Shown: piece after piece, positions 1,641 to 57,091 of the stretch | Position numbering within the stretch: position 1 is the stretch's first letter | How the letters are laid out: each line of letters opens with the position of its first letter | Assembly: GCA_964019135.1 (NCBI GenBank) | Contig: OZ025258.1 | Span: 32,544,186 to 32,608,185, forward strand | DNA length: 64,000 nucleotides | DNA from: Arenicola marina | Taxonomy: Eukaryota; Annelida; Polychaeta; Arenicolidae | Direction of reading: 5' to 3' | Notes under the pieces: model-generated | What the model was told of the DNA's origin: nothing | Seen by the model: only the letters and a program-made list of their open reading frames with translations | Database searches by the model: none | Translations under genes and position numbers: made by a program

Positions 1641-1686
1641 AAATGGACTACTGCCTGACCATTATCTGTGTTCTGGAGCAACTCAC

Positions 1687-24700: not shown

Positions 24701-27700
24701 CGAGGCTCTGTGGAGAGAGGGACGAGGCTCTGTGGAGAGAGGGACGAGGCTCTGTGGAGAGAGGGACGAGGCTCTGTGGAGAGAGGGACGAGGCTCTGTG
24801 GAGAGAGGGACGAGGCTCTGTGGAGAGAGGGACGAGGCTCTGTGGAGAGAGGGACGAGGCTCAGTGGAGAGAGGGACGAGGCTCTGTGGAGAGAGGGACG
24901 AGGCTCTGTGGAGAGAGGGACGAGGCTCTGTGGAGAGAGGGACGAGGCTCTGTGGAGAGAGGGACGAGGCTCTGTGGAGAGGGAGACGAGGCTCTGTGGA
25001 GAGAGGGACGAGGCTCTGTGGAGAGAGGGACGAGGCTCAGTAGAGAGAGGGACGAGGCTCAGTGGAGAGAGGGACGAGGCTCTGTGGAGAGAGGGACGAG
25101 GCTCTGTGGAGAGAGGGACGAGGCTCTGTGGAGAGAGGGACGAGGCTCTGGGGAGAGAGGGACGAGGCTCAGTGGAGAGAGGGACGAGGCTCTGTGGAGA
25201 GAGGGACGAGGCTCTGTGGAGAGAGGGACGAGGCTCTGTGGAGAGAGGGACGAGGCTCTGTGGAGAGAGTGACGAGGCTCAGTGGAGAGAGGGACGAGGC
25301 TCAGTGGAGAGAGGGACGAGGCTCTGTGGAGAGAAGGACGAGGCTCTGTGGAGAGAGGGACGAGGCTCTGTGGAGAGAGGGACGAGACTCTGTGGAGAGA
25401 GGGACGAGGCTCTGTGGAGAGAGGGACGAGGCTCAGTGGAGAGAGGGACGAGGCTCTGTGGAGAGAGGGACGAGGCTCTGTGGAGAGAGGGACGAGGCTC
25501 TGTGGAGAGAGGGACGAGGCTCTGTGGAGAGAGGGACGAGGCTCTGTGGAGAGAGGGACGAGGCTCTGTGGAGAGAGGGACGAGGCTCAGTGGAGAGAGG
25601 GACGAGGCTCTGTGGAGAGAGGGACGAGGCTCTGTGGAGAGAGGGACGAGGCTCTGTGGAGAGAGGGACGAGGCTCTGTGGAGAGAGGGACGGGGCTCTG
25701 TGGAGAGAGAGACGAGGCTCAGTGGAGAGAGGGACGAGGCTCTGTGGAGAGAGGGACACAGCTCAATGGAGAGAGGGACGAGGCTCTGTGGAGAGAGGGA
25801 CGAGGCTCTGTGGAGAGAGGGACGAGGCTCTGTGGAGAGAGGGACGAGGCTCTGTGGAGAGAGGGACGAGGCTCTGTGGAGAGAGGGACGAGGCTCTGTG
25901 GAGAGAGGGACGAGGCTCAGCGGAGAGAGGGACGAGGTCCTGTGGAGAGAGGGACGAGGCTCTGTGGAGAGAGGGACGAGGCTCTGTGGAGAGAGGGACG
26001 AGGCTCTGTGGAGAGAGGGACGGGGCTCTGTGGAGAGAGAGACGAGGCTCAGTGGAGAGAGGGACAAGGCTCAGTGGAGAGAGGGACGAGGCTCAGTGGA
26101 GAGAAGGACGAGGCTCAGTGGAGAGAGGGACGAGACTCTGTGGAGAGAGGGACGAGGCTCTGTGGAGAGAGGGACGAGGCTCAGTGGAGAGAGGGACGAG
26201 GCTCTGTGGAGAGAGGGACGAGGCTCAGTGGAGAGAGGGACGAGGCTCAGTGGAGAGAGGGACGAGGCTCTGGGGAGAGAGGGACGAGGCTCTGTGGAGA
26301 GAGGGACGAGGCTCTGTGGAGAGAGGGACGAGGCTCTGTGGAGAGAGGGACGAGGCTCTGTGGAGAGAGGGACGAGACTCTGTGGAGAGAGGGACGAGGC
26401 TCTGTGGAGAGAGGGACGAGGCTCTGTGGAGAGAGGGACGAGGCTCTGTGGAGAGAAGGACGAGGCTCTGTGGAGAGAGGGACGAGGCTCTGCGGAGAGA
26501 GGGACGAGGCTCTGTGGAGAGAGGGACGAGGCTCTGTGGAGAGAGGGACGAGGCTCTGTGGAGAGAGGGACGAGGCTCTGTGGAGAGAGGGACGAGGCTC
26601 TGTGGAGAGAGGGACGAGGCTCTGTGGAGAGAAGGACGAGGCTCTGTGGAGAGAGGGACGAGGCTCTGCGGAGAGAGGGACGAGGCTCTGTGGAGAGAGG
26701 GACGAGGCTCTGTGGAGAGAGGGACGAGGCTCTGTGGAGAGAGGGACGAGGCTCTGTGGAGAGAGGGACGAGGCTCTGTGGAGAGAAGGACAAGGCTCTG
26801 TGGAGAGAGGGACGAGGCTCTGTGGAGAGAGGGACGAGGCTCTGTGGAAAGAGGGACGAGGCTCAGTGGAGAGAGGGACGAGGCTCAGTGGAGAGAGAGA
26901 CGAGGCTCTGTGGAGAGAGGGACGAGGCTCTGTGGAGAGAGGGACGAGGCTCTGTGGAGAGAGGGACGAGGCTCTGTGGAGAGAGGGACGAGGCTCAGTG
27001 GAGAGAGGGACGAGGCTCAGTGGAGAGAGGGACGAGGCTCTGTGGAGAGATGGACGAGGCTCTGTGGAGAGAGGGACGAGGCTCTGTGGAGAGAGGGACG
27101 AGGCTCTGTGGAGAGAGGGACGAGGCTCTGTGGAGAGAAGGAGAAGGCTCTGTGGAGAGAGGGACGAGGCTCTGTGGAGAGAGGGACGAGGCTCTGTTGA
27201 GAGAGGGACGAGGCTCAGTGGAGAGAGGGACGAGGCTCAGTGGAGAGAGGGACGAGGCTCTGTGGAGAGAGGGACGAGGCTCTGTGGAGAGAGGGACGAG
27301 GCTCTGTGGAGAGAGGGACGAGGCTCTGTGGAGAGAGGGACGAGGCTCTGTGGAGAGAGGGACGAGGCTCTGTGGAGAGAGGGACGAGGCTCTGTGGAGA
27401 GAGGGACGAGGCTCTGTGGAGAGGGAGACGAGGCTCTGTGGAGAGAGGGACGAGGCTCTGTGGAGAGAGGGACGAGGCTCTGTGGAGAGAGGGACGAGGC
27501 TCTGTGGAGAGAGGGACGAGGCTCTGTGGAGAGAGGGACGAGGCTCTGTGGAGAGAGGGACGAGGCTCTGTGGAGAGAGGGACGAGGCTCTGTGGAGAGA
27601 GGGACGAGGCTCAGTGGAGAGAGGGACGAGGCTCAGTGGAGAGAGGGACGAGACTCTGTGGAGAGAGGGACGAGGCTCTGCGGAGAGAGGGACGAGGCTC

Positions 27701-30700
27701 TGTGGAGAGAGGGACGAGGCTCTGCGGAGAGAGGGACGAGGCTCTGTGGAGAGAGGGACGAGGCTCTGTGGAGAGAGGGACGAGGCTCTGTGGAGAGAGG
27801 GACGAGACTCTGTGGAGAGAGGGACGAGGCTCTGTGGAGAGAGGGACGAGGCTCAGTGGAGAGAGGGACGAGGCTCTGTGGAGAGAGGGACGAGGCTCTG
27901 TGGAGAGAGGGACGAGGCTCTGTGGAGAGAGGGACGAGGCTCTGTGGAGAGAGGGACGAGGCTCTGTGGAGAGAGGGACGAGGCTCAGTGGAGAGAGGGA
28001 CGAGGCTCTGTGGAGAGAGGGACGAGGCTCTGTGGAGAGAGGGACGAGACTCTGTGGAGAGAGGGACGAGGCTCAGTGGAGAGAGGGACGAGGCTCTGTG
28101 GAAAGAGGGACGAGGCTCAGTGGAGAGAGGGACGAGGCTCTGTGGAAAGAGGGACGAGGCTCTGTGGAGAGAGGGACGAGGCTCTGTGGAGAGAGGGACG
28201 AGGCTCTGTGGAGAGAGGGACGAGGCTCAGTGGAGAGAGGGACGAGGCTCAGTGGAGAGAGGGACGAGACTCTGTGGAGAGAGGGACGAGGCTCTGCGGA
28301 GAGAGGGACGAGGCTCTGTGGAGAGAGGGACGAGGCTCTGCGGAGAGAGGGACGAGGCTCTGTGGAGAGAGGGACGAGGCTCTGTGGAGAGAGGGACGAG
28401 GCTCTGTGGAGAGAGGGACGAGACTCTGTGGAGAGAGGGACGAGGCTCTGTGGAGAGAGGGACGAGGCTCAGTGGAGAGAGGGACGAGGCTCTGTGGAGA
28501 GAGGGACGAGGCTCTGTGGAGAGAGGGACGAGGCTCTGTGGAGAGAGGGACGAGGCTCTGTGGAGAGAGGGACGAGGCTCTGTGGAGAGAGGGACGAGGC
28601 TCAGTGGAGAGAGGGACGAGGCTCTGTGGAGAGAGGGACGAGGCTCTGTGGAGAGAGGGACGAGACTCTGTGGAGAGAGGGACGAGGCTCAGTGGAGAGA
28701 GGGACGAGGCTCTGTGGAAAGAGGGACGAGGCTCAGTGGAGAGAGGGACGAGGCTCTGTGGAAAGAGGGACGAGGCTCTGTGGAGAGAGGGACGAGGCTC
28801 TGCGGAGAGAGGGACGAGGCTCTGTGGAGAGAGGGACGAGGCTCTGTGGAGAGAGGGACGAGGCTCTGTGGAGAGAGGGACGAGGCTCTGTGGAGAGAGG
28901 GACGAGGCTCTGTGGAGAGAGGGACGAGGCTCTGTGGAGAGAAGGACGAGGCTCTGTGGAGAGAGGGACGAGGCTCTGCGGAGAGAGGGACGAGGCTCTG
29001 TGGAGAGAGGGACGAGGCTCTGTGGAGAGAGGGACGAGGCTCTGTGGAGAGAGGGACGAGGCTCTGTGGAGAGAGGGACGAGGCTCTGTGGAGAGAAGGA
29101 CAAGGCTCTGTGGAGAGAGGGACGAGGCTCTGTGGAGAGAGGGACGAGGCTCTGTGGAAAGAGGGACGAGGCTCAGTGGAGAGAGGGACGAGGCTCAGTG
29201 GAGAGAGAGACGAGGCTCTGTGGAGAGAGGGACGAGGCTCTGTGGAGAGAGGGACGAGGCTCTGTGGAGAGAGGGACGAGGCTCTGTGGAGAGAGGGACG
29301 AGGCTCAGTGGAGAGAGGGACGAGGCTCAGTGGAGAGAGGGACGAGGCTCTGTGGAGAGATGGACGAGGCTCTGTGGAGAGAGGGACGAGGCTCTGTGGA
29401 GAGAGGGACGAGGCTCTGTGGAGAGAGGGACGAGGCTCTGTGGAGAGAAGGAGAAGGCTCTGTGGAGAGAGGGACGAGGCTCTGTGGAGAGAGGGACGAG
29501 GCTCTGTTGAGAGAGGGACGAGGCTCAGTGGAGAGAGGGACGAGGCTCAGTGGAGAGAGGGACGAGGCTCTGTGGAGAGAGGGACGAGGCTCTGTGGAGA
29601 GAGGGACGAGGCTCTGTGGAGAGAGGGACGAAGCTCTGTGGAGAGAGGGACGAGGCTCTGTGGAGAGAGGGACGAGGCTCTGTGGAGAGAGGGACGAGGC
29701 TCTGTGGAGAGAGGGACGAGACTCTGTGGAGAGAGGGACGAGGCTCTGTGGAGAGAGGGACGAGGCTCAGTGGAGAGAGGGACGAGGCTCTGTGGAGAGA
29801 GGGACGAGGCTCTGTGGAGAGAGGGACGAGGCTCTGTGGAGAGAGGGACGAGGCTCAGTGGAGAGAGGGACGAGACTCTGTGGAGAGAGGGACGAGGCTC
29901 AGTGGAGAGAGGGACGAGGCTCTGTGGAGAGAGGGACGAGGCTCTGTGGAGAGAGGGACGAGGCTCAGTGGAGAGAGGGACGAGGCTCAGTGGAGAGAAG
30001 GACGAGGCTCAGTGGAGAGAGGGACGAGACTCTGTGGAGAGAGGGACGAGGCTCTGTGGAGAGAGGGACGAGGCTCTGTGGAGAGAGGGACGAGGCTCTG
30101 TGGAGAGAGGGACGAGGCTCTGTGGAGAGAGGGACGAGGCTCAGTGGAGAGAGGGACGAGACTCTGTGGAGAGAGGGACGAGGCTCTGTGGAGAGAGGGA
30201 CGAGGCTCTGTGGAGAGAGGGACGAGGCTCTGTGGAGAGAGGGACGAGGCTCTGTGGAGAGAGGGACGAGGCTCTGTGGAGAGAGGGACGAGGCTCTGTG
30301 GAGAGAGGGACGAGGCTCTGTGGAGAGGGAGACGAGGCTCTGTGGAGAGAGGGACGAGGCTCTGTGGAGAGAGGGACGAGGCTCTGTGGAGAGAGGGACG
30401 AGGCTCTGTGGAGAGAGGGACGAGGCTCTGTGGAGAGAGGGACGAGGCTCTGTGGAGAGAGGGACGAGGCTCTGTGGAGAGAGGGACGAGGCTCTGTGGA
30501 GAGAGGGACGAGGCTCAGTGGAGAGAGGGACGAGGCTCAGTGGAGAGAGGGACGAGACTCTGTGGAGAGAGGGACGAGGCTCTGCGGAGAGAGGGACGAG
30601 GCTCTGTGGAGAGAGGGACGAGGCTCTGCGGAGAGAGGGACGAGGCTCTGTGGAGAGAGGGACGAGGCTCTGTGGAGAGAGGGACGAGGCTCTGTGGAGA

Positions 30701-31595
30701 GAGGGACGAGACTCTGTGGAGAGAGGGACGAGGCTCTGTGGAGAGAGGGACGAGGCTCAGTGGAGAGAGGGACGAGGCTCTGTGGAGAGAGGGACGAGGC
30801 TCTGTGGAGAGAGGGACGAGGCTCTGTGGAGAGAGGGACGAGACTCTGTGGAGAGAGGGACGAGGCTCTGTGGAGAGAGGGACGAGGCTCAGTGGAGAGA
30901 GGGACGAGGCTCTGTGGAGAGAGGGACGAGGCTCTGTGGAGAGAGGGACGAGGCTCTGTGGAGAGAGGGACGAGGCTCTGTGGAGAGAGGGACGAGGCTC
31001 TGTGGAGAGAGGGACGAGGCTCAGTGGAGAGAGGGACGAGGCTCTGTGGAGAGAGGGACGAGGCTCTGTGGAGAGAGGGACGAGACTCTGTGGAGAGAGG
31101 GACGAGGCTCAGTGGAGAGAGGGACGAGGCTCTGTGGAGAGAGGGACGAGGCTCTGTGGAGAGAGGGACGAGGCTCTGTGGAGAGAGGGACGAGGCTCTG
31201 TGGAGAGAGGGACGAGGCTCTGTGGAGAGAGGGACGAGGCTCTGTGAAGAGAGGGACGAGGCTCAGTGGAGAGAGGGACGAGGCTCTGTGGAGAGAAGGA
31301 CGAGGCTCTGTGGAGAGAGGGACGAGGCTCTGTGGAGAGAGGGACGAGGCTCTGTGGAGAGAGGGACGAGGCTCAGTGGAGAAAGGGACGAGGCTCTGTG
31401 GAGGGAAGGACGAGGCTCTGTGGAGAGAGGGACGAGGCTCTGTGGAGAGAGGGACGAGGCTCTGTGGAGAGAGGGACGAGGCTCTGTGGAGAGAGGGACG
31501 AGGCTCTGTGAAGAGAAGGACGAGGCTCAGTGGAGAGAGGGACGAGGCTCTGTGGAGAGAGGGACGAGGCTCAGTTGGAGAGAGGGACACGGCTA
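18797..31595 (+). repeat. 12.8-kb satellite of a 22-bp unit
   Basis: About 580 copies of a 22-bp unit containing GGCTCTGTGGAGAGAGGGAC. Common variants are GGCTCAG, GGCTCTGGGG, GAGACT for GAGGCT and AGAGGGAGACGAG. As 22 is 1 modulo 3, each forward frame reads the same 22-residue peptide in turn and the unit lacks stops, giving open frames of up to 2,612 codons. These are not credible genes: there is no start context, no splice sites and no constraint on codon position. Higher-order copies are visible, for example variant blocks repeating at 2,310 bp (105 units) between about 26.8-27.2 and 29.1-29.5 kb. Confidence 0.97.
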
Positions 31596-34432: not shown

Positions 34433-37199
34433 CTGTAAAAAGAAGAAATGTGTCAAAATAATAACTACGACGACGTGAACCATGTGCAGTCAATCTCACT
34501 TATTGGTCTATTCGGCACTGCCAATTTTTAACTCAAATTTCTTGTTCACACTCGTCAGTGGCTGATTTCACGCACGCAGTTTAGCCGACTACGAAGCTTA
34601 ATCGGCTGAAGTTACCATGTAAATGATGGAAGATTGTAAATTATGTACATGAAATAATAGGGCACCATGTCGCCGGGTAAACTATATACGTGAAATAGGC
34701 CAAACTGAAGGCTTGCCCATCCACGATACTTTCAACAGGAATAACTACTTCCGATAGCTCCTTACAGCATAGTTTATTTATTTTTTATTTTTTATTTTTC
34801 ATTCATTTTTTGTGACAAGATGGCGTCAATGCACTAACGTGTTGCAAAAGTTTACTGCATAGTGTTTCAGTGGCTGCGAGGAGCACTGTGCCGTATTTGC
34901 CGCAAGGACGCAATGCATGCTTGACGAGGTAGTTCCACTTACCAGTTTGCAAGATGAGGCGAGTGACGTCGTTGTTACAGTCCTCGCCATAGCAAGCAAA
35001 TTCGCATACGTTCGGTTTAGAACAGACCACATATCCTAGTCTCAATTCGTCATCCAAGCTGCTCACAGGCGCACACCTCTTTGTGAATCTAAGCCTGCAA
35101 ACATATGTTCATTTTGGTAAGAGAGCATATCCAGATTCCTGGGGTCGTGTACCGCGGGATACTTGGTGGTGAACATACATCGTAATACCTAAAGTAATCA
35201 AGCAAATTATTTGAGCGTTATACAAAGAAGCGTTAATAATACAATACGACAATAAGTGTTCCTACATGCCCGGGGCAATACAACTGTTCCTAGATGCCCG
35301 GGGCGATACAAGTGTTCCTACATGCCCGGGGCAATACAAGTGTTCCTACATGCCCGGGGCGATACAAGTGTTCCTACATGCCCGGGGCAATACAAGTGTT
35401 CCTACATGCCCGGGGCAATACAAGTGTTCCTACATGCCCGGGGCGATACAAGTGTTCCTACATGCCCGGGGCAATACAACTGTTCCTAGATGCCCGGGGC
35501 AATACAACTGTTCCTACATGCCCGGGGCGATACAACTGTTCCTACATGCCCGGGGCGATACAAGTGTTTCTAGATGCCCGGGGCAATACAACTGTTCCTA
35601 CATGCCCGGGGCAATACAAGTGTTCCTAGATGCCCGGGGCAATACAAGTGTTCCTACATGCTTAGGGCAATACAAGTGTTCCTACATGCCCGGGGCGATA
35701 CAAGTGTTCCTACATGCCCAGGGCAATACAAGTGTTCCTACATGCCGGGGGCGATACAAGTGTTCCTACATGCCCGGGGCAATACAAGTGTTCCTACATG
35801 CCCGGGGCAATACAAGTGTTCCTACATGCCCGGGGCAATACAACTGTTCCTACATGCCCGGGGCAATACAAGTGTTCCTACATGCCCAGGGCAATACAAG
35901 TGTTCCTACATGCCCGGGACAATACAAGTGTTCCTACATGCCCGGGGCAATACAAGTGTCCCTACATTGCCCAGGGCAATACAAGTGTTCCTACATGCCC
36001 GGGGCAATACAAGTGTCCCTACATGCCCGGGGCAATACATGTGTTCCTACATGCCCGCGGCAATACAAGTGTTCCTACATGCCCGGGGCAATACAAGTGT
36101 TCCTACATGCCCGGGGCAATACAAGTGTTCCTACATGCCCGGGGCAATACAAGTGTTCCTACATGCCCGGGGCAATACAAGTGTCCCTACATTGCCCAGG
36201 GCAATACAAGTGTTCCTACATGCCCGGGGCAATACAAGTGTTCCTACATGCCCGGGGCAATACAAGTGTCCCTACATGCCCGGGGCAATACATGTGTTCC
36301 TACATGCCCGCGGCAATACAAGTGTTCCTACATGCCCGGGGCAATACAAGTGTTCCTACATTGCCCAGGGCAATACAAGTGTTCCTACATGCCCGGGGCA
36401 ATACAAGTGTTCCTACATTGCCCAGGGCAATACAAGTGTTCCTACATTGCCCGAGGCAATAAGGTAAGCGTGCTTACGTTCCGGAGGCAGCATTACAGGC
36501 GACCTTGGCTAGGCAATAGTGGTTCTCTGAGTTGCATTCCTCGTCCAGACAGTCTTCTTCGCTATAGACGTTCCTGCATGTCTTACAGGTAATTCCTGGA
36601 ATACATCGAAGAAGATCACACTGTGTTGAATATAATAACAATGGAAGTACATAGATTTGCTTCTCCCGGTTGCTGCCTACAATGCGACTGGTAGGGTTTA
36701 AGGTGTCTTACAGCGTCAGGTCTCACAACAATGGCTTCTGAGCGTAACGACAAAAGCGTCTACATAGACAACATTTCGTTTTTAATCTTCAAATAACTTG
36801 ACCATAAGGAAGAGACTAGCAGTAAACCATAGACGCCATGAATGGCGGGTTGTGGACTGTGGTAAATATGACAGAGAAACATTCCCCTTGGCAAAGAAAA
36901 GTTGATCTATTACCGTAACGGATATACAGTCGCCGGGGGCCGATGCGAAACACTGCATTACTGGGATAAATCAATGCTACATAGAAGTCTTCATATAATT
37001 ATTCACGCAATAGCAAAACTTTGTAATGTGATGAAATTGAAGACGAAAGGTTCAGCTGTAATAATTCAGTCGGTTCAAAAATTGGATCCTCTCTAGTGTT
37101 AATAGACTGGCGCTACCATGGAGACCAGAACTTACCCACGCTGAGTCCTATGGAGACCAACACGACCAGAGACCCCAGAAGGGCGGCTGAACACTTCAT
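34388..37199 (-). CDS. Gene 3: single-domain 12-cysteine Ly6-like secreted protein (exon model)
   Basis: Exons: signal 37136-37199, domain 36478-36595 and 34943-35094, linker 34388-34432. Phases join cleanly (1, 2, 1). The mature domain starts ITCKTCRNV and ends CYGEDCNND, with 11 Cys, and the linker exon supplies the twelfth (GCEGQ). Ly6-like proteins of this size are usually secreted or GPI-anchored; I could not find a hydrophobic C-terminal exon, so anchoring is open and the 3' end is unresolved. The promoter has a TATA box and a CRE-like palindrome. This domain is distant from those of genes 1 and 2. Confidence 0.72.
34943..35094 (-). CDS. Domain second-half exon of gene 3
   Basis: 152 nt, acceptor TTTGCAG, donor GTAAGTGG, phase 2 to 1. 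It encodes FTKRCAP, then YVVCSKPNVCEFACYGEDCN. The C-x3-C-x4-CN ending matches the family. Confidence 0.84.
35255..36462. repeat. 28-bp minisatellite at the start of a gene 3 intron
   Basis: About 43 units of ATGCCCGGGGCAATACAAGT plus GTTCCTAC. It begins about 15 bp beyond the donor of exon 36478-36595. On the minus strand TTGCCCCGGGCATGTAGG resembles the exon end TGCCTCCGGAAC|GTAAGC, so it may be a decayed exon/donor array. Variant sub-blocks (TGTCCCTACATTGCCC) recur at about 240-bp spacing. Confidence 0.9.
36478..36595 (-). CDS. Domain first-half exon of gene 3
   Basis: 118 nt between TATTCCAG and GTAAGCAC, phase 1 to 2. It encodes ITCKTCRNVYSEEDC, EEC, HYC and KVAC, the first six Cys. Confidence 0.85.
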
Positions 37200-44832: not shown

Positions 44833-44946
44833 CTGAGCCTCCTGGCGTCCCGTCCGGTCCCTCGGGAATGAGGTCCACGGCAGGGGGCGTGGTCGGCTCC
44901 GGGGGTTCCACCTCAGTTGGCTCCGGCGTGGGCCCCACTGTACAAG
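44833..44946 (-). CDS. Pro/Thr/Glu-rich stalk exon of gene 1
   Basis: 114 nt, GCCGCAG to GTGCTGTG, phase 1-1. It starts A-C-T-V-G-P, supplying the last Cys of domain 5, and continues PTPEPTEVEPPEPTTPP, a likely O-glycosylated stalk. The counterpart is 63627-63755. The donor is moderate. Confidence 0.65.
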
Positions 44947-47900
44947 CTGCGGCGGTAGTCAGACAACCTCTATTAATTACATTGCTCCCCAGATACAGCC
45001 TTAGATCTTACTGTCACAGACACCACTATTAATATAGCCCGAGATCTTACCGTCACTGACACCACTATAATAACATTGCTCCCCAGATATAGCCCCAGAT
45101 CTTAATGTCACAGACACCACTATAATAACATTGCTCCCTAGATATAGCCCGAGATCTTACCGTCACTGACACCACTATTAATAACATTGCTCCCTAGATA
45201 TATCCCCAGATCTTAATGTCACAGACACCACTATTAATGACATTGCTCCCCAGATATAGCCCCAGATCTTACCGTCACTGACACCACTATTAATGACATT
45301 GCTCCCCAGATATAGCCCCAGATGTTACCGTCACAGACACCACTATTATTGACATTGCTCCCTAGATATAGCCCCAGATCTTACCGTCACTGACACCACT
45401 ATTAAATACATTCGTATTACTTAAAGCTGTTTCATGCTGATCTACTTATTATTCTCCTTTACCTCAGCTATTTGAGGATTTTATTCCTGACATTATAATC
45501 TCTATGAATATGTCTTGTCCATGCACCCAAAAATCATCAGTCGTGATCGGGGCATGCACTGCCGTCAATCCTATTAGGTGTTCACCCATGTGCCAACTCG
45601 GAGGCTCCGAAACCTTCGACAGTGTGTGAACGCAATCACCAGGCTGATCGCACTAACAAACTACAGATAACGGGCTGTATTTATAGGAATGGTGTTAAAC
45701 AAATTATGCACGTAAGACGTGCTCTCTTGTAGTCTCTCACACTCCTGGCGGCGATATTCTAAGTATTGTCACTTGGGGTTTATGTGTGCCACTGCTGAAG
45801 TTTTTGGGTCATCTTACCCAGGGCGTCAATGACAATCTGGGCGTCAACGTTGCAGCCGTCCTCCCCACAGGTCATCTCACACTTGGTGTCCTTGGGGCAG
45901 ACCGGGTTGTCCAGCATGGTGGGGTCGGCGACAGTCTCACGCTTGCATCTCTTGGTGATGCGAGTGCTAAAACAAGGTAACAGAAAACAAATGCCATTTC
46001 ACCAGATGCACGGGTAACCCATACCATGTGGCCAATAGTGTACGTTCTGTGTAGACCTGTGTATCAGCTCTGTAGACAGTATTATATGTTCCGCATACAC
46101 TCAGTTGGTAAGCATACTGAGCAGCAAATCAAAAGGTCGTGGGTTCATTATATCTGAATATCTGGTATTACATCCGGGGCAAGTCCAACTTCATTTCAGT
46201 GTCCCTGTGAATTTATTTTTGACTGTCTACTGACAGACGACACGAAACACTGCTATTTACAGACCACACGAAACATTGCTACTTACACACCCCATGAAAC
46301 ATTGCTACCTACAGACCACACGAAACACTGCCTACCGACAAACCACACAAAACCAGGCTACTGACAGACCACACGAAACACTACTACTTACAGACCCCAT
46401 GAAACACTGCTACTTACAGACCCCATGAAACATTGCTACTTACAGACCACACGAAGCACTGCCTACTGACAGACCACACGAAACAATGCTACTGACAGAC
46501 CACACGAAACATTGCTACTTACAGACCACACGAAACATCGCTACTTACAGACCACACTAAACATCACTACTTACAGACCACATTAAAACTGCCAACGTAG
46601 AGACCACACGAAACATTACTACTGACAGACCCCAAGAAACATCTCTACTTACAGGCCCCACGAAACTGCCTACTTACAGACCACATAAAACACTGCGTAC
46701 TTACAGACCACACTAAACACTGCCTACTTACAGACCACTATCGCGTTCACAGATGACCTTGGTGTAGCAGAGGTTGCCAGCGCGACACCTGATGTCTTCG
46801 CATTCACTCTCGTCGTACACGTCAGTACATTTCTGGCAGTCAATTCCTGATTTAGACGAACGGTTTAAATATCAGAAACAATAAAATGACGATTTGTTGT
46901 TTTGTAGGTACAAATATTGCATTAATATCGACACGTATATGTTACAAAAGACAAATATAATAATTATGTGTATCAACAAATGTTGAATATTAAAATAGGG
47001 CACTGTATAGGACCGAATTATTGGTAATACCATACATTGAGATATGATATGCTCGGACCTAATATTAGATGTCATAAATAAGAATGGCGATGAAATTTTG
47101 TGACTTCTTACCTGGAGGCCTAACTGGGCAATCTACAAAACAATGAAATAATAAATAAACACATAGCAAGGCGACAGACGAATGCTTTTAGTTTCAGGAT
47201 TGCGAAATAACACACAAAGACTCGATATATATGTAGCTTTAATCATCACGCACGTCAATGTATTGCATCAAATGTATATAGGTAAATAGCCACATCAAAG
47301 TTCTTAAATGGCGGACATTTGGTTATTGAGAGCCTGAAAGATGGCTGACATATAGTTATTGAGAGCCTGAAAGATGGCTGACATCCAGTTATGAGAGAAT
47401 GGAAGAGGGCTGACAGCCACTTATGAGAGCCTGGAAGAGGGCTGACATGTACTTACTGAGAGCCCGGAAGAGGGCTGACATGTACTAACTGAGAGCCTGG
47501 AAGATGGTTGATATGTACTGACTGAGAGCCTGGAAGAGGGCTGACATGTACTCACTGAGAGCCTGGAAGATGGTTGATATGTACTGACTGAGAGCCTGGA
47601 AGAGGGCTGACATGTACTCACTGAGAGCATAGATGAGGGCTGACATGTACTCACTGAGAGCCTGGAAGACGGCTGACATGTACTTACTGAAAGCCTGGAA
47701 GAGGGCTGACATGTACTTACTGAGAGCCTGGAAGAGGGTTGATATGTACTGAATGAGAGCCTGGAAGAGGGTTGATATGTACTGACTGATAGCCTGGAAG
47801 AGGGCTGACATGTACTCACTGAGAGCCTGGAAGAGGGCTGACATGTACTTACTGAGAGCCTGGAAGAGGGTTGATATGTATTGACTGAGAGCCTGGAAGA

Positions 47901-50900
47901 GGGCTGACATGTACTCACTGAGAGCATAGAAGAGGGCTGACATGTACTCACTGAGAGTCTGGAAGAGGGCTGACATGTACTTACTGAAAGCCCGGAAGAG
48001 GGCTGACATGTACTCACTGAGAGTCTGGAAGAGGGCTGACATGTACTTACTGAGAGCCTGGAAGAGGGCTGGCAAGCACTTACTGAGAGCCTGGAAGAGG
48101 GCTGACATGTACTTGCTGAGAGCCTGGAAGAGGGCTGACATGTACTTACTGAGAGCCTGGAAGAGGGCTGACATGTACTTGCTGAGAGCCTGGAAGAGGG
48201 CTGACATGTACTTACTGAGAGCCAGGAAGAGGGCTGACATGTACTTACTGAGTGCCTGGAAGAGGGCTGGCAAGTAGTTACTGAGAGCCTGGAAGAGGGC
48301 TGACATGTACTTACTGAGAGCCTGGAAGAGGGCTGACATGTACTTGCTGAGAGCCTAGAAGAGGGCTGACATGTACTTGCTGAGAGCCTGGAAGAGGGCT
48401 GACATGTACTTACTGAGAGCCTAGAAGAGGGCTGACATGTACTTACTGAGAGCCTGGAAGAGGGCTGACATGTACTTACTGAGAGCCTGGAAGAGGGCTG
48501 ACATGTACTTACTGAGAGCCTGGAAGAGGGCTGACATGTACTTGCTGAGAGCCTAGAAGAGGGCTGACATGTACTTACTGAGAGCCTGGATGAGGGCTGA
48601 CATGTACTTACTGAGAGCCTGTCTTTGCGATGTTGCAGCGCATATGTTTGCGCACAGTTTTTAACTAGCCGACAAAATATGGATCTTTCCAGAATCCTTA
48701 TGCAATTTACTGACCTGGCGGAAGGAAAATACTTTGATTTATTGTCCTAACTTGCAATGTCAGGGCTTTTTCTGGGCACATTTATTCGATCAGCGCCAGC
48801 CCGCGCCATTATGCGCTGCAACACCGCAAAGACAGCAAATGCTGCCTGGCTCTAACGGCACCCCGTGATGCGTTAGAGACAGGCCTGGTAAAGAAGAGGG
48901 CTGACATGTACTTACTGAAAGCCTGGAAGAGGGCTGACGTGTACTTACTGAGAGCCTGGAAGAGCTCGGCTGTGTCTGTGTTACAGTAGTCAGTGTCACA
49001 GGCCAGGGAGCAGTTGTCGATGTTCTCACAGACCATGTTGTTGAGGCTGCTGAGATCGGCGACGGCCGCTATGTTCATGCATCGCTTCTTATAACGCGCT
49101 CTGAAGAAATGGAATCATGAATAAATCATAGGAGTGTTGTTATTGAAATTAGTGTGGGAGGCACAAAAATTTTTTCCACAAAAACCTGAAAATAATGCTT
49201 GTGAAACCCTGACATGTAGGCGACCGTGGTGCACGTTACGTACTATTTGCACACTATAATCGTTGGTAAACACATAAGAGGGCCAGAGGCACAGATATAT
49301 ATTAGGTTCTACAAGGGGGGCACGTGCTACCCTGTACCCCCCCTGGACACGCCCACGTCAAGACCTGATAGAATACGTGCCCAGTTGATGGCTTGCGTGG
49401 GGAGTTAGTTACGTCTGCAAGCCTGCCCTCACGTCCAGGGGCCGTATTCATAATCCCCTCGGAAGTTATGCACGAAAAGTGTGTTTTCGTCTTATCCTCA
49501 CCAGCTCATTGTGGTGCTGCTCATGATTATGAAAATCCCTTCGATATAATTTCAGCACTTTCTTAATTAGGAAAATCCACTTCTTGGGTGACTATTTATG
49601 TATTTTTAACCCGATAATCGATCGACAAATCTTACCCTCTGTCTGATGTTAGGAAAAGAATGACCACTACAGAAAATCTCCAGTGTGTTTGATATTAGAA
49701 AAAGACTGACCACTACAGACATTCTCACCATGTAAGCTGATGCATGACACACTCTAATGCTGAGTGACTTATGAGAATGCAATTTTAGCAAAACCAAACA
49801 ACGTTGGGACTGTCCAGATGCAGCTATGGCACCACATTGCTCTGAAAGAATAATCTTAGGACAATGGTGAGCACCAGACTTACGTCTCATTGGGCCGATC
49901 GCAGAGCACTTTGGCGAAGCAGACCTCACTTTCGCGACAAGTCTGAGGTTCATTCTGAGTGTTGCAGTCTCCTTCGTTGTCCACGTCATCACACACGGTG
50001 CAGATGGGTCCTGGAAAATGGGCTGAGTAATGTAGGCGACTGCTACATCACATCTCTTGCTTAAAGGACAACGAAGTTAGGCGAGGTTCGCCGTCACTGA
50101 AGTTACTGAGTATTGAGTAAACAGTACGCCGCCGAATCAAACTGTTATTGCTCATATATAGAATGAGCGATAAGGAACTGAATATTCGACACACAAACGA
50201 GAAGGTGGAATATTTAAAGGGACAAAGCTGACTTACCCACTCCCCTGGTAGGACAATCTGAAAGGTAAATGGAAGTAGCAATCAATAACGCGTAGGATAC
50301 CAACAATGTAGACCTGGACTTGATGGAGAGCATATGGTATTGTGTAGACAAGGCACCGGTGGTTAGTAGTAATGTCAGCTAAGCGATATATACTGTCAGC
50401 CAGCAACAAGGATAACGCCGTAACATTTGAATAGGGTGTGAGAATGATACAGTACTTTGAGAACATCGACAAAAACATTTATATTTCCACAATGAACGAA
50501 GCGACAGCTATCTTTCTATTAATATATATTCGACAATGATATAGATTTTTTCTGTGAGCTCTTTCTGTGATATTACGATATTTGTTCTGTATCTTTTCCC
50601 CCTCCTTTTTTGTTTACTGATACATGTTCTGCAAAAAGGATGTTATGTGATGAAACAGGAAAAATTATTTATTAAAGAAAAAAAAAACGCATGACCTGCA
50701 TAACAGGTAAGACAGCCCGTAAATTCAAAACAACCCCTCGCTCATGCACTATTATAGGGTGTTATATTTTACGCCAACGTTTTCTAACTTACTTAGTCCA
50801 GACCATTATCTGAGCCCTGTAGGAACTCACCAATCACGGTGTCGAGGTACTGCGCGGTGTTGTCGTTACAGGCCTCGCTGTCGCAGTAGTAAGCACACTT

Positions 50901-53900
50901 CGAAGTGTCGGCATTCTCGCAGTAGGGGGTGTCCAGCGCTGTGTCAGTGGGGGCACCTACACATCCCTTCTTCATCAAACTGTCTCTGAAATATATGTCA
51001 AAAGAGTTTAAAACGAGTAATTATATTCCCATGCCAGGTGGGGCCAGATCTTAGAGAAGCCAACATAATGTTATTCGACCAGCCAAAGATGGGTCGGCTA
51101 TGTAACTTCTTAGCATAATGCAATTGTGTCACCGGGTTGGACGCCTGGACCATTTAAATATGAACCGTGACGATTCAAATGGTCCTCTGGACGTGATATA
51201 ATTAATTAAATATGACGTTGGCGATAACATGCATCCAGAGATTGGAGTTGTGGACGCTGTAATGTAAGGTGTGTACAGGGTGATGGTAAAGTATGTATAT
51301 ATATAAGTTACGTATTTATATATTGTGACAAGAAGGCAGGGCATTTGGTAAAAAGAATAATCGTAATTTAATTAGTTATTAACTTTACTGGCGCTTACCC
51401 TCCACTGGTGCATCGGATGCTGATCTGACACACTTGGTTGGGGTTGCACTGCTCCAACGGACCCTGGTTACAGGTCGCCTCGTCCGGGGCGTCCGTGCAT
51501 GACCGACAATGAATGCCTGGAACAAAGCGTAACCACATGTCAACTCTTCTTCCGGTGTTTAGTTGATCGTATTAAACACAATAAAAATCAATGGGATATA
51601 TAACAAGTGGTAATGTTATCTATTACACGGCTACGGCTAGATAGGAGGTGGGGTGGATATGTTATTATGGTACAGTAGGGGTGTCAGCACATCGGGATTA
51701 GTGCACTATTTGAATTGTAATAATTCTTGAAGAAACTAATGGCTTATTATATTTTATGTTCATTGCATCTATCCGATAGTGACTGTTCGGAGCGACAGTT
51801 CGGTAATGAATTATGACTCACCCACGGCTCTGACTGGGCACGCTGTGAAGACAAGAAAAAGGAGGACGTATTGGTACACAGACAAACAATGATGACAACG
51901 GCGACAGATGCAACCACCTTTATGACACCCAAATACTGCATTAATATTGTGAAAAGACTAGAATATGCTGGGTATGGTTGTTCAGGAATGACCCCCCCCC
52001 CCTCCCCCTGTTTACATAGATACGTATATATGTAACGCGATAAGGAATCATTTTACGTAAACATTGAGGCAAAACACGCATCAACCTTCCACAGTACCAG
52101 TAATCAACGCATCATAACGCACGCAGAATAACGGAATCACCCAACTACTATCCTGAGTCACGTACCCGAGAGAACCAGCCATGCTGGACACATGGTCCCG
52201 CAAAACCACCCAGAAAATAAATAATTTATCATTCAGGTAACACAGGTGGGAGGTAACTCACAGAGCAGGGCGGCTATGAGGCTGACAGGTGGGAGGTAAC
52301 TCACAGAGCATGGCGGGAGACTGACAGGTGGGAGGTAACTCAGAGCATGGCGATTATGAGACTGACAGGTGGGAGGTAACTCACAGAGCATGGCGGCTAT
52401 GAGACTGACAGGTGGGAGGTAACCCACAGAGCATGGCGGCTATGAGACTGACAGGTGGGAGGCAACTCACAGAGCATGGCAGGAGACTGACAGGTGGGAG
52501 GTAACTCAGAGCATGGCGATTATGAGACTGACAGGTGGGAGGTAACTCAGAGCATGGCGATTATGAGACTGACAGGTGGGAGGTAACTCACAGAGCATGG
52601 CGGCTATAAGACTGACAGGTGGGAGGTAACTCACAGAGCATGGCGATTATGAGACTGACAGGTGGGAGGCAACTCACAGAGCATGGCAGGAGACTGACAG
52701 GTGGGAGGTAACTCAGAGCATGGTGACTATGAGACTGACAGGTGGGAGGTAACTCAGAGCATGGCGATTATGAGACTGACAGGTGGGAGGTAACTCACAG
52801 AGCATGGCGGGAGACTGACAGGTGGGAGGTAACTCACAGAGTAGGGCGGCTATGAGGCTGACAGGTGGGAGGTAACTCAGAGCATGGGGGCTATGAGACT
52901 GACAGGTGGGAGGTAACTCACAGAGTATGGCGACTATGAGGCTGACAGGTGGGAGGTAACTTAGAGCATGGCGGCTATGAGGCTGACAGGTGGGAGGTAA
53001 CTGAGAGCATGGCGGCTATGAGGCTGACAGGTGGGAGGTAACTCACAGAGTATGGCGGCTATGAGGCTGACAGGTGGGAGGTAACTCAGAACATGGCGGC
53101 TATGAGGCTGACAGGTAGGAGGTAACTGAGAGCATGGCGGCTATGAGGCTGACAGGTGGGAGGTAACTCACAGAGTATGGCGGCTATGAGGCTGACAGGT
53201 GGGAGGTAACTCACAGAGCATGGCGATTATGAGGCTGACAGGTTGGAGGTAACTCACAGAGCATGGCGGCTATAAGACTGACAGGTGGGAGGTAACTCAC
53301 AGAGCATGGAGGCTATGAGGATGAAAGGTGGGAGGTAACTCACAGAGCATGGCGGCTATGAGGCTGACAGGTTGGAGGTGACTCACAGAGCATGGCGGCT
53401 ATAAGACTGACAGGTGGGAGGTAACTCACAGAGCATGGCGGCTATGAGGCGGACAGGTGTGAGGTAACTCACAGAGCATGGCGGCTATGAGGCTGACAGG
53501 TGGGAGGTAACTCACAGAGCATGGCGATTATGAGGCTGACAGGTGGGAGGTAACTCACAAAGCATGGCGGCTATGAGACTGACCGGTGGGAGGTAACTCA
53601 CAGAGCATGGCGATTATGAGGCTGACAGGTTGGAGGTAACTCACAGAGCATGGCGGCTATAAGACTGACAGGTGGGAGGTAACTCACAGAGCATGGAGGC
53701 TATGAGGATGAAAGGTGTGAGGTAACTCACAGAGCATGGCGGCTATGAGGCTGACAGGTTAGAGGTGACTCACAGAGCATGGCGGCTATAAGACTGACAG
53801 GTGGGAGGTAACTCACAGAGCATGGCGGCTATGAGGCGGACAGGTGTGAGGTAACTCACAGAGCATGGCGGCTATGAGGCTGACAGGTGGGAGGTAACTC

Positions 53901-56900
53901 ACAGAGCATGGCGGCTATGAGGCTGACAGGTGGGAGGTAACTCACAAAGCATGGCGATTATGAGGCTGACAGGTGGGTGGTATCTCACAGAGCATGGCGG
54001 CTATGAGACCTACAGATGGGAGGTAACTCACAGAGCATGGCGGCTATGAGACTGGCACTTTCGTCGTTACAGGCATCGCCATCACAGTACATTCCGCACT
54101 TGGTGTTGTCCGCACTCTCACACGTCACGACGTTGAGCTCCGGGCCTGCGCCCACACACCCCTTCTTCATCTGGCTGTCCCTGCAAGGTCAGCAAGGACG
54201 CTTTTGATCGGCCATGAGCGAATGCAAGATTTTAAAAAGGAAACTAGAGGTCTATATTGGATGAGTTCTCCGAAAATCTTGTCAGCGGCGTCAAGGAATG
54301 AATAGATACATTATCGACAATTGTCATATCGTAATTTGTATCAAATAAAAAATAATAACTCCTTAATACTGTTGAAATCAATGCGCGTCTCAGTTGATCT
54401 GGCGTTTGTTGTTGTGAACTATTTGTTCAGCTAGTTGCCCTCTTGCAATGATTTTGTTCTTCATACTTACTCTCCTATGATGCAGCGGATGCTGGTCTGA
54501 CACACTTGATTGGGATTGCATTGCTCCAGTGGTCCCTGGTCGCAAACATTCTCATCCGTCTCTTCCACACAGGTGCGGCACTGGGGTCCTGAAAGGATAT
54601 GGGCCTTACCATTGCAATCACATGAGTCGAAAAGCGGCTCAGTGGCAGCTGTGCAGCGAAATGATTATAATAGTAGCGTGCCAGGCCATGCAAGAGAGTT
54701 TAATTACAGGATCAGTGTATCTCTGCCTCGAGGAGACAACGTTAGTTGGCGGCTTCGGAATAGAGAACTCACCCACATCTTTGACCGGGCAAGCTGCAAG
54801 AAATAAGAAAAAAGTAAGTGACATCATCTTTACAGAAGCAGCTTCTAGTACAAGTAGCATTTATAGAAGTAAGACTATCCATGCATTACAATTAATACAA
54901 CAATAATAGTAATAATATTTTTGAGAATAGTAAAAATATTAAATAATACTAATTATAATAAAATTAATAATATCATTAGTATTAAAAACATATATCTAAC
55001 AACTGTGATTTTAGCATTTTATTCCATCAATCTATCTCTTTCTGTGAATCAGGGCGATATTAACAGTAACAGGGGGGTGAGCAAGGGGTATTTGCGTTCC
55101 GTGCCAGGGTTGATTCTGCGGAGGAGAGATGCCTTGCAAATCGATTAGCTCATAACTTGCGGAGAGAAAATAAGTGCTTCAAGCCCGAACAGGATTCTAT
55201 ATACACTTTAGGCCAAAATCGAGGGAAAGAGGGTGGGGTGAGGATGGTGAGAAGGGCTCACGCCAACCATTAGTATGAAGATTCAAGACTGATGACATAG
55301 GTGTTAATTGCATCCTGGTTTTGCCGTTAAGCTGAGTAGAATTATTCTGGGAAATGAAGAAGTTGTTGACTGCTTACTTAGGACGCTGTTGATCTCGTCA
55401 TAGTTGGCAGCATTGCACAGCTCGGAGTCACAGTAGACAGCACACTTGGTGTTGGTGTTGTCTGTACACGTGGGACCTCCGTTGATGTTATTAGCGTTAC
55501 TAGCGCCAACGCAACCCTTCTTTATCATGATGCTGGAATATAATCGTCGCGCATGTGTGTCAAAACCCACAACATTAAGCAAAACCAGCGGCTAAGTAAT
55601 TTTGCTTTGAACCTTATATTATACTTATTTAGAAGCCTGTATATTTAAAAAACAATCATTTTCAACTATACCCTTGCCGCCCGCCCCCCCTCCCCCGCAC
55701 CCCTGCCACGCCGGCGAGCACAGGAAAGTTTGCTGAGTCCCAAACGCATTAAATTTTATTTAATACATAGTGGTCAGTCGTCAATTCATAATTATATCGA
55801 CGGAAAAAGCGCGGGGTATTTGACCTCAATGACTACCCACCCCGTCGGGGAGACGCATCGAACGACCGTCTGGCATATCTGGTTATTGTTACACTCGTCC
55901 GTGGTCCCCTGCGACATGCACTCCTCCTCGCTGGCAGACTCCGTGCATTTGTGACACGTGGGACCTGTTCACCATGCAATCAAATAGAAGTCGCATTGAG
56001 TCGTGATACAAGTGCGTCGGGCTTCCTTACATTACTAGCTGATATTGTATTTGATTTATACACTATTAATCATCATAAGTATAACAACTGTTAAAAAATG
56101 TATTGCTTAACAACAGAGCTGTAATATGAAATACATTATTCTAAAAAAAAGAAAAGGCAGTTGTGCCTATCAAATTTCGTAATTGTCTTTCCTGTAACAT
56201 GTATTTCATTTACAATTTTGCTTTTTCTAAAGTATTTTCCTTTATTTCTGCTCATAGCAGTCAACAATTCTTCAGGTAGTTCCAGTAATCCATTACAGTG
56301 AAACCATGGTAGTAGCTATTCAATTTGACAAAAATCTTGTGCATTAATGCAATCAGTACTCCTTGTATTACAAACATAACTATAGCCTCATGCACAAAGT
56401 TGACGTGTTGTACCAAGTCTTGGAATGAATAGCACAGTAAATGTTACCATACGACAATGCGTATCTACAGAGCGAGACTAAAAGACAACAAAGGCACTAA
56501 CATTTCAGCAAAATGCAAACAAGAGAAACGGCGTGGCCATCTGAATTAATGTTCCTATTGGGTCTTCAAATAAATGATTACCATTGCGGATTATTATCTT
56601 CTTATGTGACTATGGTAAGTAGATCACCATTTTCATACTAAATAAAGGTTGCTGACCTTAGTACATGAAAAAAATAAAATGAGACAAAATTCCCCCTGCT
56701 TCTAAACTCATGAACAATCTGCCAAATTTGACCCCTCCCCCACTCCTGCAGTGTTGTCCCCAAGGGAACTTCGGGTATCCACCAATCTCAAATCTCAAAT
56801 GTACTGTTAGTGACGATCTGTTGAAAGCTTATTCTACTAATATCGAAATAGACAAGAGAAATAAACTGCTTAGGTCGACATCGTTTAGCAAAAACTGCTA

Positions 56901-57091
56901 TGCCTCAAAATCCCCCCCTCCCCCCATGCCCTCTTTATCTGTCCTTTATAAAACCTTCTGGGAGAAGGCATGTTTGTTTTGTAGGCGTGTTTTAGTTGGG
57001 CATTGGTTGATGGGGTGTGGTTGGCATTACCGGCAGCGTTCACACCGCTGATAACCAACAGCAGGGCGACAGCCAACGTCCCCATGATCAT
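44833..57091 (-). CDS. Gene 1: five-domain Ly6/uPAR-like secreted protein (exon model)
   Basis: Exons: signal 57031-57091; domain 1 55841-55964 and 55378-55532; linker 54773-54793; domain 2 54471-54588 and 54032-54180; linker 51822-51842; domain 3 51399-51516 and 50831-50985; linker 50237-50257; domain 4 49884-50010 and 48949-49100; linker 47112-47132; domain 5 46732-46846 and 45818-45966; stalk 44833-44946; 3' exons unresolved. Every junction is GT/AG with matching phase and the whole is open, about 570 codons. All five domains have 12 Cys including the linker Cys. Multi-domain Ly6 proteins such as uPAR work at the cell surface; here the Pro/Thr stalk after domain 5 suggests presentation away from a membrane or matrix, but no anchor was found. 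Four arrays lie in its introns, three of them repeating the adjoining splice donor. It may instead be several genes; only RNA data can decide. Confidence 0.72.
44960..45415. repeat. About 57-bp tandem repeat just upstream of the stalk exon acceptor
   Basis: About seven to eight units containing ATTGCTCCCCAGATATAGCC and GATCTTACCGTCACTGACAC, with alternating CTGACACC/CAGACACC and GATCTTACCG/GATCTTAATG subtypes. At the gene 4 locus the corresponding place (63783-63840) holds a single diverged unit, so the expansion is specific to gene 1. Confidence 0.88.
45818..45966 (-). CDS. Domain 5 second-half exon of gene 1
   Basis: 149 nt, TGTTTTAG to GTAAGATG, phase 2 to 1. It encodes ITKRCKRE, then NPVCPKDTKCEMTCGEDGCN. 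No array at its donor. Confidence 0.85.
46085..46165 (+). mobile_element. tRNA-related SINE head or tRNA pseudogene
   Basis: CACTCAGTTGGTAAGCATAC resembles a tRNA A box and GGTCGTGGGTTCA a B box, at roughly tRNA spacing. The flanking stems do not pair into an acceptor arm, so it is not a working tRNA. A short SINE-like tail (TATCTGAATATCTGG) follows. Confidence 0.5.
46225..46731. repeat. 26-27 bp minisatellite of exon end plus 5' splice donor
   Basis: About 20 units directly abut exon 46732-46846. On the minus strand each unit is GTGGTCT|GTAAGTAGGCAG followed by TGTTTAGT or TGTTTCGT. The exon itself ends AGTGGTCT|GTAAGTAGGCAG. The four units nearest the exon all keep GTAAGT; farther ones drift to GTCAGT, GTAGGT, GTAAAT or CTACGT. 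Each unit also has an acceptor-like GTTTAG or TTTCGTG. Confidence 0.93.
46732..46846 (-). CDS. Domain 5 first-half exon of gene 1
   Basis: 115 nt, TAAATCAG to GTAAGTAG, phase 1 to 2. It encodes IDCQKCTDVYDESEC, IRC, NLC and KVIC. Its final 7-8 nt and donor are repeated in the adjoining array. The first donor is chosen because reading past it meets TAA at once. Confidence 0.85.
47112..47132 (-). CDS. 21-nt linker microexon before domain 5
   Basis: TTTTGTAG|21 nt|GTAAGAAG, phase 1-1, reading x-C-P-V-R-P-P-G. The upstream frame is open and hydrophobic for about 18 codons but has no ATG, so a signal peptide is excluded unless another exon supplies the start. Confidence 0.68.
47308..48948. repeat. 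33-bp minisatellite of exon end plus 5' splice donor, with an insertion
   Basis: About 42 units in two blocks (47308-48620 and 48895-48948). The minus-strand unit is CTTCCAGGCTCTCA|GTAAGT plus ACATGTCAGCCCT; exon 48949-49100 ends CTTCCAGGCTCTCA|GTAAGT. Most units keep GTAAGT; others have GTGAGT, GTCAGT or the rarer GCAAGT. Each unit also holds CCCTCTTCCAG, an acceptor-like site. As 33 is divisible by 3, reading past the first donor stays in frame and adds KYxSALFQAxS repeats. Confidence 0.94.
48621..48833. mobile_element. 213-bp MITE inserted in the 33-bp array
   Basis: Terminal inverted repeats of 22 bp with one mismatch: GTCTTTGCGATGTTGCAGCG at the left and CGCTGCAACACCGCAAAGAC at the right. 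No coding content. A further 60 bp (48834-48894) of unrelated sequence separates it from the last two array units. The insertion shifts the reading frame of the array relative to the exon. Confidence 0.75.
48949..49100 (-). CDS. Domain 4 second-half exon of gene 1
   Basis: 152 nt, TTCTTCAG to GTAAGTAC, phase 2 to 1. It encodes YKKRCMNIAAV, then NMVCENIDNCSLACDTDYCN and ends AELFQAL. If later donors in the array were used the exon would lengthen by 33 nt per unit without losing frame, up to the insertion. Confidence 0.85.
49440..49640. mobile_element. MITE-like fragment
   Basis: It begins AGGGGCCGTATTCATAATCC and shares an inverted match of about 150 bp with 1430-1640. It lies in the intron between the two halves of domain 4. 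Confidence 0.55.
49884..50010 (-). CDS. Domain 4 first-half exon of gene 1
   Basis: 127 nt, TTTTCCAG to GTAAGTCT, phase 1 to 2. It encodes PICTVCDDVDNEGDC, QTC, EVC and KVLC. The longest first-half exon of the set. Confidence 0.85.
50237..50257 (-). CDS. 21-nt linker microexon before domain 4
   Basis: CCTTTCAG|21 nt|GTAAGTCA, phase 1-1, reading x-C-P-T-R-G-V-G. Here an in-frame ATG at 50333 would give a 32-codon signal-like leader (MLSIKSRSTLLVSYALL...), so this is the best case for a separate gene start. Its exon phase and Cys still match the other linkers. Confidence 0.6.
50831..50985 (-). CDS. Domain 3 second-half exon of gene 1
   Basis: 155 nt, ATTTCAG to GTGAGTTC, phase 2 to 1. It encodes LMKKGCVGAP, then TPYCENADTSKCAYYC and CDSEACN; closely matches 4648-4802 and 1687-1841 of gene 2. 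Confidence 0.87.
51399..51516 (-). CDS. Domain 3 first-half exon of gene 1
   Basis: 118 nt, TTCCAG to GTAAGCGC, phase 1 to 2. It encodes IHCRSCTDAPDEATC, QCNPNQVC and IRC. Confidence 0.86.
51822..51842 (-). CDS. 21-nt linker microexon before domain 3
   Basis: CTTCACAG|21 nt|GTGAGTCA, phase 1-1, reading x-C-P-V-R-A-V-G. The ATG-initiated frame upstream (51941) reaches the donor in the wrong phase, so a signal-peptide reading fails here. Confidence 0.68.
52243..54031. repeat. 43-bp minisatellite of exon end plus 5' splice donor, next to its parent exon
   Basis: About 42 units (43 bp, with 38-41 bp deletion variants) run directly from exon 54032-54180 into its downstream intron. On the minus strand the unit is CTCCCACCTGTCAG, then TCTCATAGCCGCCATGCTCT, then GTGAGTTAC. 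The middle part is the exact 3' end of the exon, the last is its donor and the first is a pyrimidine-rich acceptor-like site. Higher-order copies occur (53.2-53.5 and 53.6-53.9 kb). Confidence 0.95.
54032..54180 (-). CDS. Domain 2 second-half exon of gene 1
   Basis: 149 nt, CCTTGCAG to GTGAGTTA, phase 2 to 1. It encodes MKKGCVGAGP, then VTCESADNTKCGMYCDGDACN and ends SLIAAML. This is the parent sequence of all 43-bp splice-junction arrays. The first donor is chosen; reading on reaches a stop within about one unit. Confidence 0.86.
54471..54588 (-). CDS. Domain 2 first-half exon of gene 1
   Basis: 118 nt, CCTTTCAG to GTAAGTAT, phase 1 to 2. It encodes PQCRTCVEETDENVC, QCNPNQVC and IRC. Confidence 0.86.
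54773..54793 (-). CDS. 21-nt linker microexon before domain 2
   Basis: TTCTTGCAG|21 nt|GTGAGTTC, phase 1-1, reading x-C-P-V-K-D-V-G. An in-frame Met-Met at 54827 with Leu/Phe codons mimics a signal peptide, as at 6.9 kb; those codons are the polypyrimidine tract of the acceptor. Confidence 0.62.
55378..55532 (-). CDS. Domain 1 second-half exon of gene 1
   Basis: 155 nt, ATTCCAG to GTAAGCAG, phase 2 to 1. It encodes MIKKGCVGAS, INGGPTC, NTKCAVYC and CDSELCN. The paralogue of 13028-13182. Confidence 0.86.
55841..55964 (-). CDS. Domain 1 first-half exon of gene 1
   Basis: 124 nt, GAACAG to GTGGGTAG, phase 1 to 2. It encodes PTCHKCTESASEEEC, DEC, QIC and VVRC. Unlike its gene 2 counterpart (13775-13895) it has no splice-junction array at the donor. 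Confidence 0.84.

Follow-up and report, generated by a model that had tools for sequence, protein, structure and literature searches.

A 64-kb stretch of the genome of the annelid Arenicola marina (C11:32544186-32608185, hereafter the window) lies inside a tandem cluster of multi-domain genes on the minus strand, whose domains resemble Ly6 and several of whose exons carry minisatellites running across their 5' splice site, or donor. A further 100 kb were fetched on each side, so that 264 kb were read in all; these hold 120 exon matches, grouped in super-repeats spaced 59-72 kb, each of which consists of a gene A with five domains of two exons apiece, its relative gene B, in which the number of domain-3 modules is variable, and a diverged gene C. 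Exons were placed by protein similarity (tblastn) together with an automatic splice-motif score that uses a donor consensus, and their edges may be a few bases off (for example at 55841 and at the signal-peptide exons); microexons of ~21 nt, three of which were seen by eye near 50249, 51838 and 54771, are left out of all counts. The Ly6/uPAR three-finger domain is marked by ten cysteines, with a C-x2-C start and a C-N end, and an alignment of seven domains from the cluster agreed with this motif, showing ten invariant cysteines and the C-N end. The best PDB match was LYPD6, at a weak E of 0.0078; none of five domains tested against Pfam rose above the cut-off, and a Ly6 Pfam search of the genome, with 16 candidates, gave no match, probably because the domains are each split between exons. 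As Pfam returned no match and that to LYPD6 is weak, 'Ly6-like' is a putative assignment based on the cysteine pattern and this similarity.

An earlier note on this DNA had reported tandem arrays at the donors of four Ly6-like exons, and Tandem Repeats Finder (TRF) found all four close to where it had placed them, with units of 55, 26, 33 and 43 bp repeated head-to-tail in 5 to 48 copies. Each array begins inside the exon and crosses its 5' splice site, so that a copy of this donor recurs in every unit. Gene B has the 55-bp array (13513-13808, minus strand like the other three; 5.4 copies), which takes in 34 bp of exon 1a (13775-13895, donor 13775), which was placed by tblastn and splice motifs. 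The remaining three belong to gene A, with exons placed by similarity and splice motifs: the 43-bp array (52242-54054, 43 copies) includes 23 bp of exon 2b (54032-54180, donor 54032), the 33-bp array (47323-48964, 39.4 + 2.2 copies) 16 bp of exon 4b (48949-49100, donor 48949) and the 26-bp array (46222-46738, 19.7 copies) 7 bp of exon 5a (46732-46846, donor 46732). Over the whole 264 kb, in which each gene is present four times, arrays span the donors of 20 of the 120 exons and the acceptors of none. The spanned exons recur from one gene copy to the next: 1a in 4/4 copies of gene B, 2b and 5a each in 4/4 copies of gene A, and 4b in 8/8 copies of genes A and B.

The earlier note had proposed that the arrays of the four exons (1a, 2b, 4b and 5a) originated separately, and this is supported. 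Its further claim that each unit matches only its own exon stood in so far as the units are mostly unrelated in pairwise comparison and fell in so far as the 43-bp unit also occurs at 1-1105 and 2957-4066 and the 33-bp array also at exon 4b of gene B. The similarity between the 33- and 26-bp units exceeded that of shuffled sequences (0 of 200 as high), a likeness that we attribute to shared donor letters, and the pairs 43/33 and 43/26 were borderline (0.05 and 0.045).

Two paralogous exons had been named as array-free natural controls, and indeed TRF reports an array at the donor of neither. The first, exon 2b of gene B (6064-6212, minus strand), was found by sequence comparison to contain the 43-bp unit once, with 36 of 43 bases equal, spanning both exonic and intronic parts. 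The second is exon 1a of gene A (55841-55964, minus strand), whose true donor could be a few bases below the one called automatically. In addition, exon 5a of gene B, which lies in the right flank, carries a 27-bp unit once together with a partial second copy, which could represent either an early stage or a shrunken array. Since their paralogs have a single unit, with at most part of a second one beside it, the 43-bp array at 2b and the 26-bp array at 5a arose in place. The 33-bp array is present at exon 4b of gene B too, in all four fetched copies; since it is thus found in both genes, we infer that it is probably older than the A/B gene pair. A genome-wide search (867 Mb, at most two mismatches), which covered the 43- and 55-bp units, matched the 43-bp pattern 708 times and the 55-bp pattern 384 times, each on one strand only. 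The matches listed, the first of each pattern, all fall within C11:32.20-32.84 Mb, and the two units therefore seem local to the cluster, as far as seen.

The nearly identical gene copies of the cluster allow the turnover of the arrays to be read. Over 8.0-8.1 kb outside the arrays, gene A copies diverge by 0.27-0.45%, and in the four of them the 43-bp array counts 15, 40, 43 and 38 full units, with 39.6, 32.6, 39.4 + 2.2 and 47.6 copies for the 33-bp array. The 55-bp array has 5.4 copies in the gene B of the window and 7.4 in the three other copies of gene B; these 5.4-7.4 copies compare with a dense run of ~3.5 kb (C11:32837182-32840635) among the listed matches of the 55-bp pattern. In the window the 33-bp array is in two parts (47323-48621 and 48893-48964) with an insertion between them (48619-48835), which has 26-nt inverted ends (48619-48644 and 48810-48835), has unsettled outer limits and resembles a miniature inverted-repeat transposable element. 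The array sequence that enters this insertion is the third copy in 4/4 of the 33-bp arrays of gene B and is not among the first copies in the other three gene A arrays; the shared sequence may reflect exchange between genes A and B.

The account that fits these observations best, and to which we assign a probability of about 0.75, is that the arrays are neutral intronic minisatellites lying across exon ends. Each would have begun when a short segment, by chance straddling the 3' end of the exon and its donor, was duplicated in tandem, and would later have expanded and contracted through unequal exchange or slippage; it would persist because the exon-adjacent copy keeps the original donor in place, the further copies being plain intron. 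The exon-proximal donor would be the one used. This account rests on the geometry of the arrays, on the finding, for two exons out of four, of a paralog that holds one unit or little more and on the differences in copy number, and also on the weak constraint on distal donors and the like arrays at SRCR donors and acceptors, both described below.

Several observations weigh against it. The gene A paralog of exon 1a aligns poorly beyond the exon and so provides no single-copy control for 1a, and 4b has none either, the 4b exon of gene B having an array of its own. The 26-bp array measures 512 bp in all four gene copies, so that not every array is turning over. When reading was continued beyond the proximal donor, with the coding frame set by the protein-similarity matches, exon 4b stayed open for 137 bp in the window copy and in three gene B copies and for 113 bp in the fourth gene B copy, which would let a few of its distal donors serve with no stop in between. 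When the arrays of the window, 18 after merging, were relocated at random relative to the 22 exons placed in it, 0.59 donor-spanning arrays resulted on average where four were seen (P = 0.0014, a value made optimistic by the window having been selected for its arrays), or 0.31 with exon overlap capped at 40 bp, in which case none of 5000 relocations reached four; acceptor-spanning arrays numbered none against 0.57 expected. Finally, array ends show a mild surplus near donors when the window is joined with the control set described next (13 against 7.9 expected, P = 0.034). Neutrality by itself leaves this surplus and the donor excess of the window unexplained unless ascertainment is invoked.

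The same two figures speak for 5' splice sites as a mutational hot spot, where transcription-coupled breaks or slippage would raise the rate of duplication, an explanation that we regard as improbable. As a control we took ten 10-kb stretches round exons of the unrelated SRCR family, picked by their SRCR matches and not by arrays. After dropping hits wholly within arrays and one further hit (L030 7185-7253, where a donor region recurs in a degenerate second copy absent from the TRF output), 103 of 138 hits were kept as exons, their edges being those of the similarity hits rather than mapped splice sites. With 36 arrays in these stretches, donors were spanned four times against 3.5 expected (P = 0.47) and acceptors twice against 3.5; the donor-against-acceptor comparison that the earlier note had put forward, run on these 100 kb, thus gave no clear donor excess. 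Two of the four donor cases are paralogous exons with homologous units of 102/104 bp, leaving three or four origins. An earlier look at 39 exons from the SRCR family search had found no donor-spanning array and one acceptor-spanning array, and the donor cases came with the other SRCR half-exons.

One SRCR exon has a 46-bp array of 64 copies across its donor (L026 2959-5912), and the two acceptor-spanning arrays lie at L022 7229-7498 (66 bp x 4) and L027 8670-9394 (43 bp x 17). A donor region at L030 7044-7253 is in a degenerate two-copy duplication, the second copy of which contains stops and which falls below the TRF threshold.

The positions of array ends differed between donors and acceptors. 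Near donors, five ends were counted in the window against 1.1 expected and eight in the SRCR control against 6.7 (P = 0.35); near acceptors, the window had none against 1.1 and the control three against 6.8, which gives three against 7.9 for both data sets and a donor-acceptor difference of P = 0.0027. The two intron ends thus differ by a deficit at acceptors, and the mild surplus at donors comes mostly from the window; this local excess among the Ly6-like genes may stem from ascertainment. Selection against damage to the branch point and polypyrimidine tract would yield such a deficit, and we read the pattern as tolerance at donors combined with selection against change at acceptors.

Nor did the array units themselves point clearly to the donor as a special site. 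Donor-like motifs were scored in them, with weights that were assumed and not derived, against dinucleotide shuffles at four thresholds. In the Ly6 region, with its 17 array families, none of these thresholds gave a significant excess (9, 5, 4 and 2 families against 6.5, 4.3, 2.6 and 1.4 expected); the SRCR arrays do lend the hot spot some support at the highest threshold, where 6 of 26 families had such a motif against 2.5 expected (7 of 300 shuffles as high). Seven units had neither a common strand skew (range -0.36 to +0.53) nor a common RNA fold, and two of them, the 33-bp and the SRCR 46-bp unit, folded better than their shuffles (z below -2). The donor-specific mechanism suggested earlier, slippage or break repair, is therefore not borne out, with SRCR donors near random expectation, arrays present at acceptors and no skew or fold in common, and the data by themselves are no proof of such a mechanism. 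The other suggestion made at that time, that extra copies of a donor are tolerated as they do little harm, is supported.

It is very unlikely, in our judgement, that the arrays are used, that is, that the extra donors make isoforms or regulate splicing and are held by selection. In favour of use is the 33-bp array, whose unit length is divisible by three, whose unit reads LFQALSKYMSA in the exon frame and whose exon has the open frame noted above in five copies; in three of the four gene A copies, however, a stop follows 23 bp past the donor. In the 55- and 26-bp arrays the frame closes with a stop 1 bp beyond the donor, and in the 43-bp array of gene A 44 bp beyond it; 55, 43 and 26 are not multiples of three. 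Conservation between the copies of an array points the same way: in four of five array sets the donor columns were no better kept than the others (0.940 against 0.975, 0.927 against 0.934, 0.894 against 0.925 and 0.748 against 0.758), so that purifying selection on distal donors was not seen in these, and in the fifth, the 26-bp array, they were slightly better kept (0.918 against 0.878), with values of 0.95 and 1.00 for the GT columns, which speaks for use there. That a dispersed satellite older than the exons was inserted at the donors we consider next to negligible and largely contradicted already, for although the 43-bp unit does lie away from donors in the two gene B arrays at the start of the window, the 43- and 26-bp units correspond to the end of the exon and the donor in a paralog free or nearly free of arrays, and the 43- and 55-bp patterns keep to one strand, with all listed matches inside the cluster.

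These two gene B arrays (1-1105, which begins in the flank, and 2957-4066; both TRF calls on the minus strand) separate domain-3 modules, and each lies 582 bp downstream of the donor of the preceding exon. More generally, 43-bp arrays are found in gene B ~580-610 bp past each domain-3b exon save the last, which is to say at every junction between domain-3 modules. The four copies of gene B (read from 1-5305 and the flanks, L001-L020) have 2, 4, 5 and 5 such modules and 1, 3, 4 and 4 arrays. The module between the two arrays of the window is 97.5% identical to the next module over 1.3 kb, and it matches the module on its other side at 96% over 1.3 kb and 92% over 0.5 kb. This positional correlation suggests that the 43-bp array is an exchange point for the gain and loss of domains. 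We tentatively entertain a fuller scenario, which is possible and still rather doubtful, in which the array was founded at the 2b donor and recombined to every domain-3 junction, where unequal exchange sets the number of domains. If true, splice-site minisatellites would be a route to the amplification of exons and domains, going beyond inert intron.

The window holds further repeats. A 28-bp array in gene C (35254-36461, minus strand, TRF) begins 17 bp into the intron that follows the exon at 36478-36595 and excludes its donor, and the same intronic start was seen in 4/4 copies. A 56-bp array of gene A (45032-45412) lies upstream of the acceptor of the last exon and excludes it, ending 14-24 bp short of it in three of four copies. 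A LINE-like element (long interspersed nuclear element; 7696-10562, plus strand) with endonuclease-type and reverse transcriptase domains lies in gene B, where it separates exon 1b from exon 2a. The interval that separates genes B and C contains 22-bp units arrayed over 12.8 kb (18703-31588, ~581 copies, 96% matches); the corresponding arrays of other super-repeats are 1.8, 4.9 and at least 7.4 kb long. An Rfam scan of the window gave no match. A GFP family search, used as a lineage marker, returned nothing in this genome or in the control genomes and is therefore uninformative.

How, then, do the Ly6-like arrays relate to known systems? The minisatellite of the human IFI6 (6-16) gene reportedly provides multiple splice donor sites to a transcript. 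Its units carry a donor, as do ours. In the Ly6-like arrays, whose distal donors would be candidates for such use, in-frame stops lie 1-44 bp beyond the first donor in most copies, and 113-137 bp beyond it in five copies of 4b. Intron gain through tandem duplication across an exon-intron boundary, of which one report describes a case in potato RdRp (PMC4974935), starts from the same kind of duplication. Unlike that case, the Ly6-like genes multiply donors only, their acceptors are spanned in 0/120 exons, and their DNA showed no new intron.

The closest relatives are the 'mirages' of amphioxus, so that the kind of repeat has been described already and the Ly6-like arrays are a further case. Mirages are arrays at the 5' and 3' boundaries of amphioxus genes, with Adh3 and globin genes among the cases (PMC3087553); a second paper adds PGBD5 and cites TnC (PMC3902484). 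They are characterised as leaving normal splicing undisturbed. With the Ly6-like arrays they share short units that repeat, in tandem, the end of an exon with its splice signal and the first part of the intron, an unstable length and an occurrence in several unrelated genes. Taken trait by trait, the unit holds the exon-intron boundary of its host gene in all four arrays (34, 23, 16 and 7 exonic bp, plus the donor), and length is unstable in the 43- and 33-bp arrays of gene A and the 55-bp array of gene B, not in the 26-bp array. Both boundaries and several genes are involved once the SRCR exons are included (4 donors and 2 acceptors in 103); the Ly6-like genes have arrays at donors only. A class III alcohol dehydrogenase gene of A. 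marina (C4:7083599-7084454) has residues ~90-113 matching at three places in a row, of which two contain stops; judged by the match coordinates, this may be a duplicated exon boundary of the sort described in amphioxus Adh3.

Two features set the present arrays apart from the mirage cases considered here: their recurrence within one gene cluster, and their size, with as many as 48 copies at the donors of Ly6-like exons and 64 at that of one SRCR exon compared with 2 to 7 in the globin and PGBD5 cases. The cluster thereby offers mirage-like arrays in a dense and well-resolved setting, with four origins side by side and single-copy controls for two of them. It also sets donors, where arrays are about neutral and perhaps in mild surplus, apart from acceptors, where they are in deficit, and it points to a possible link between minisatellites at exon boundaries and the number of domains in a gene.

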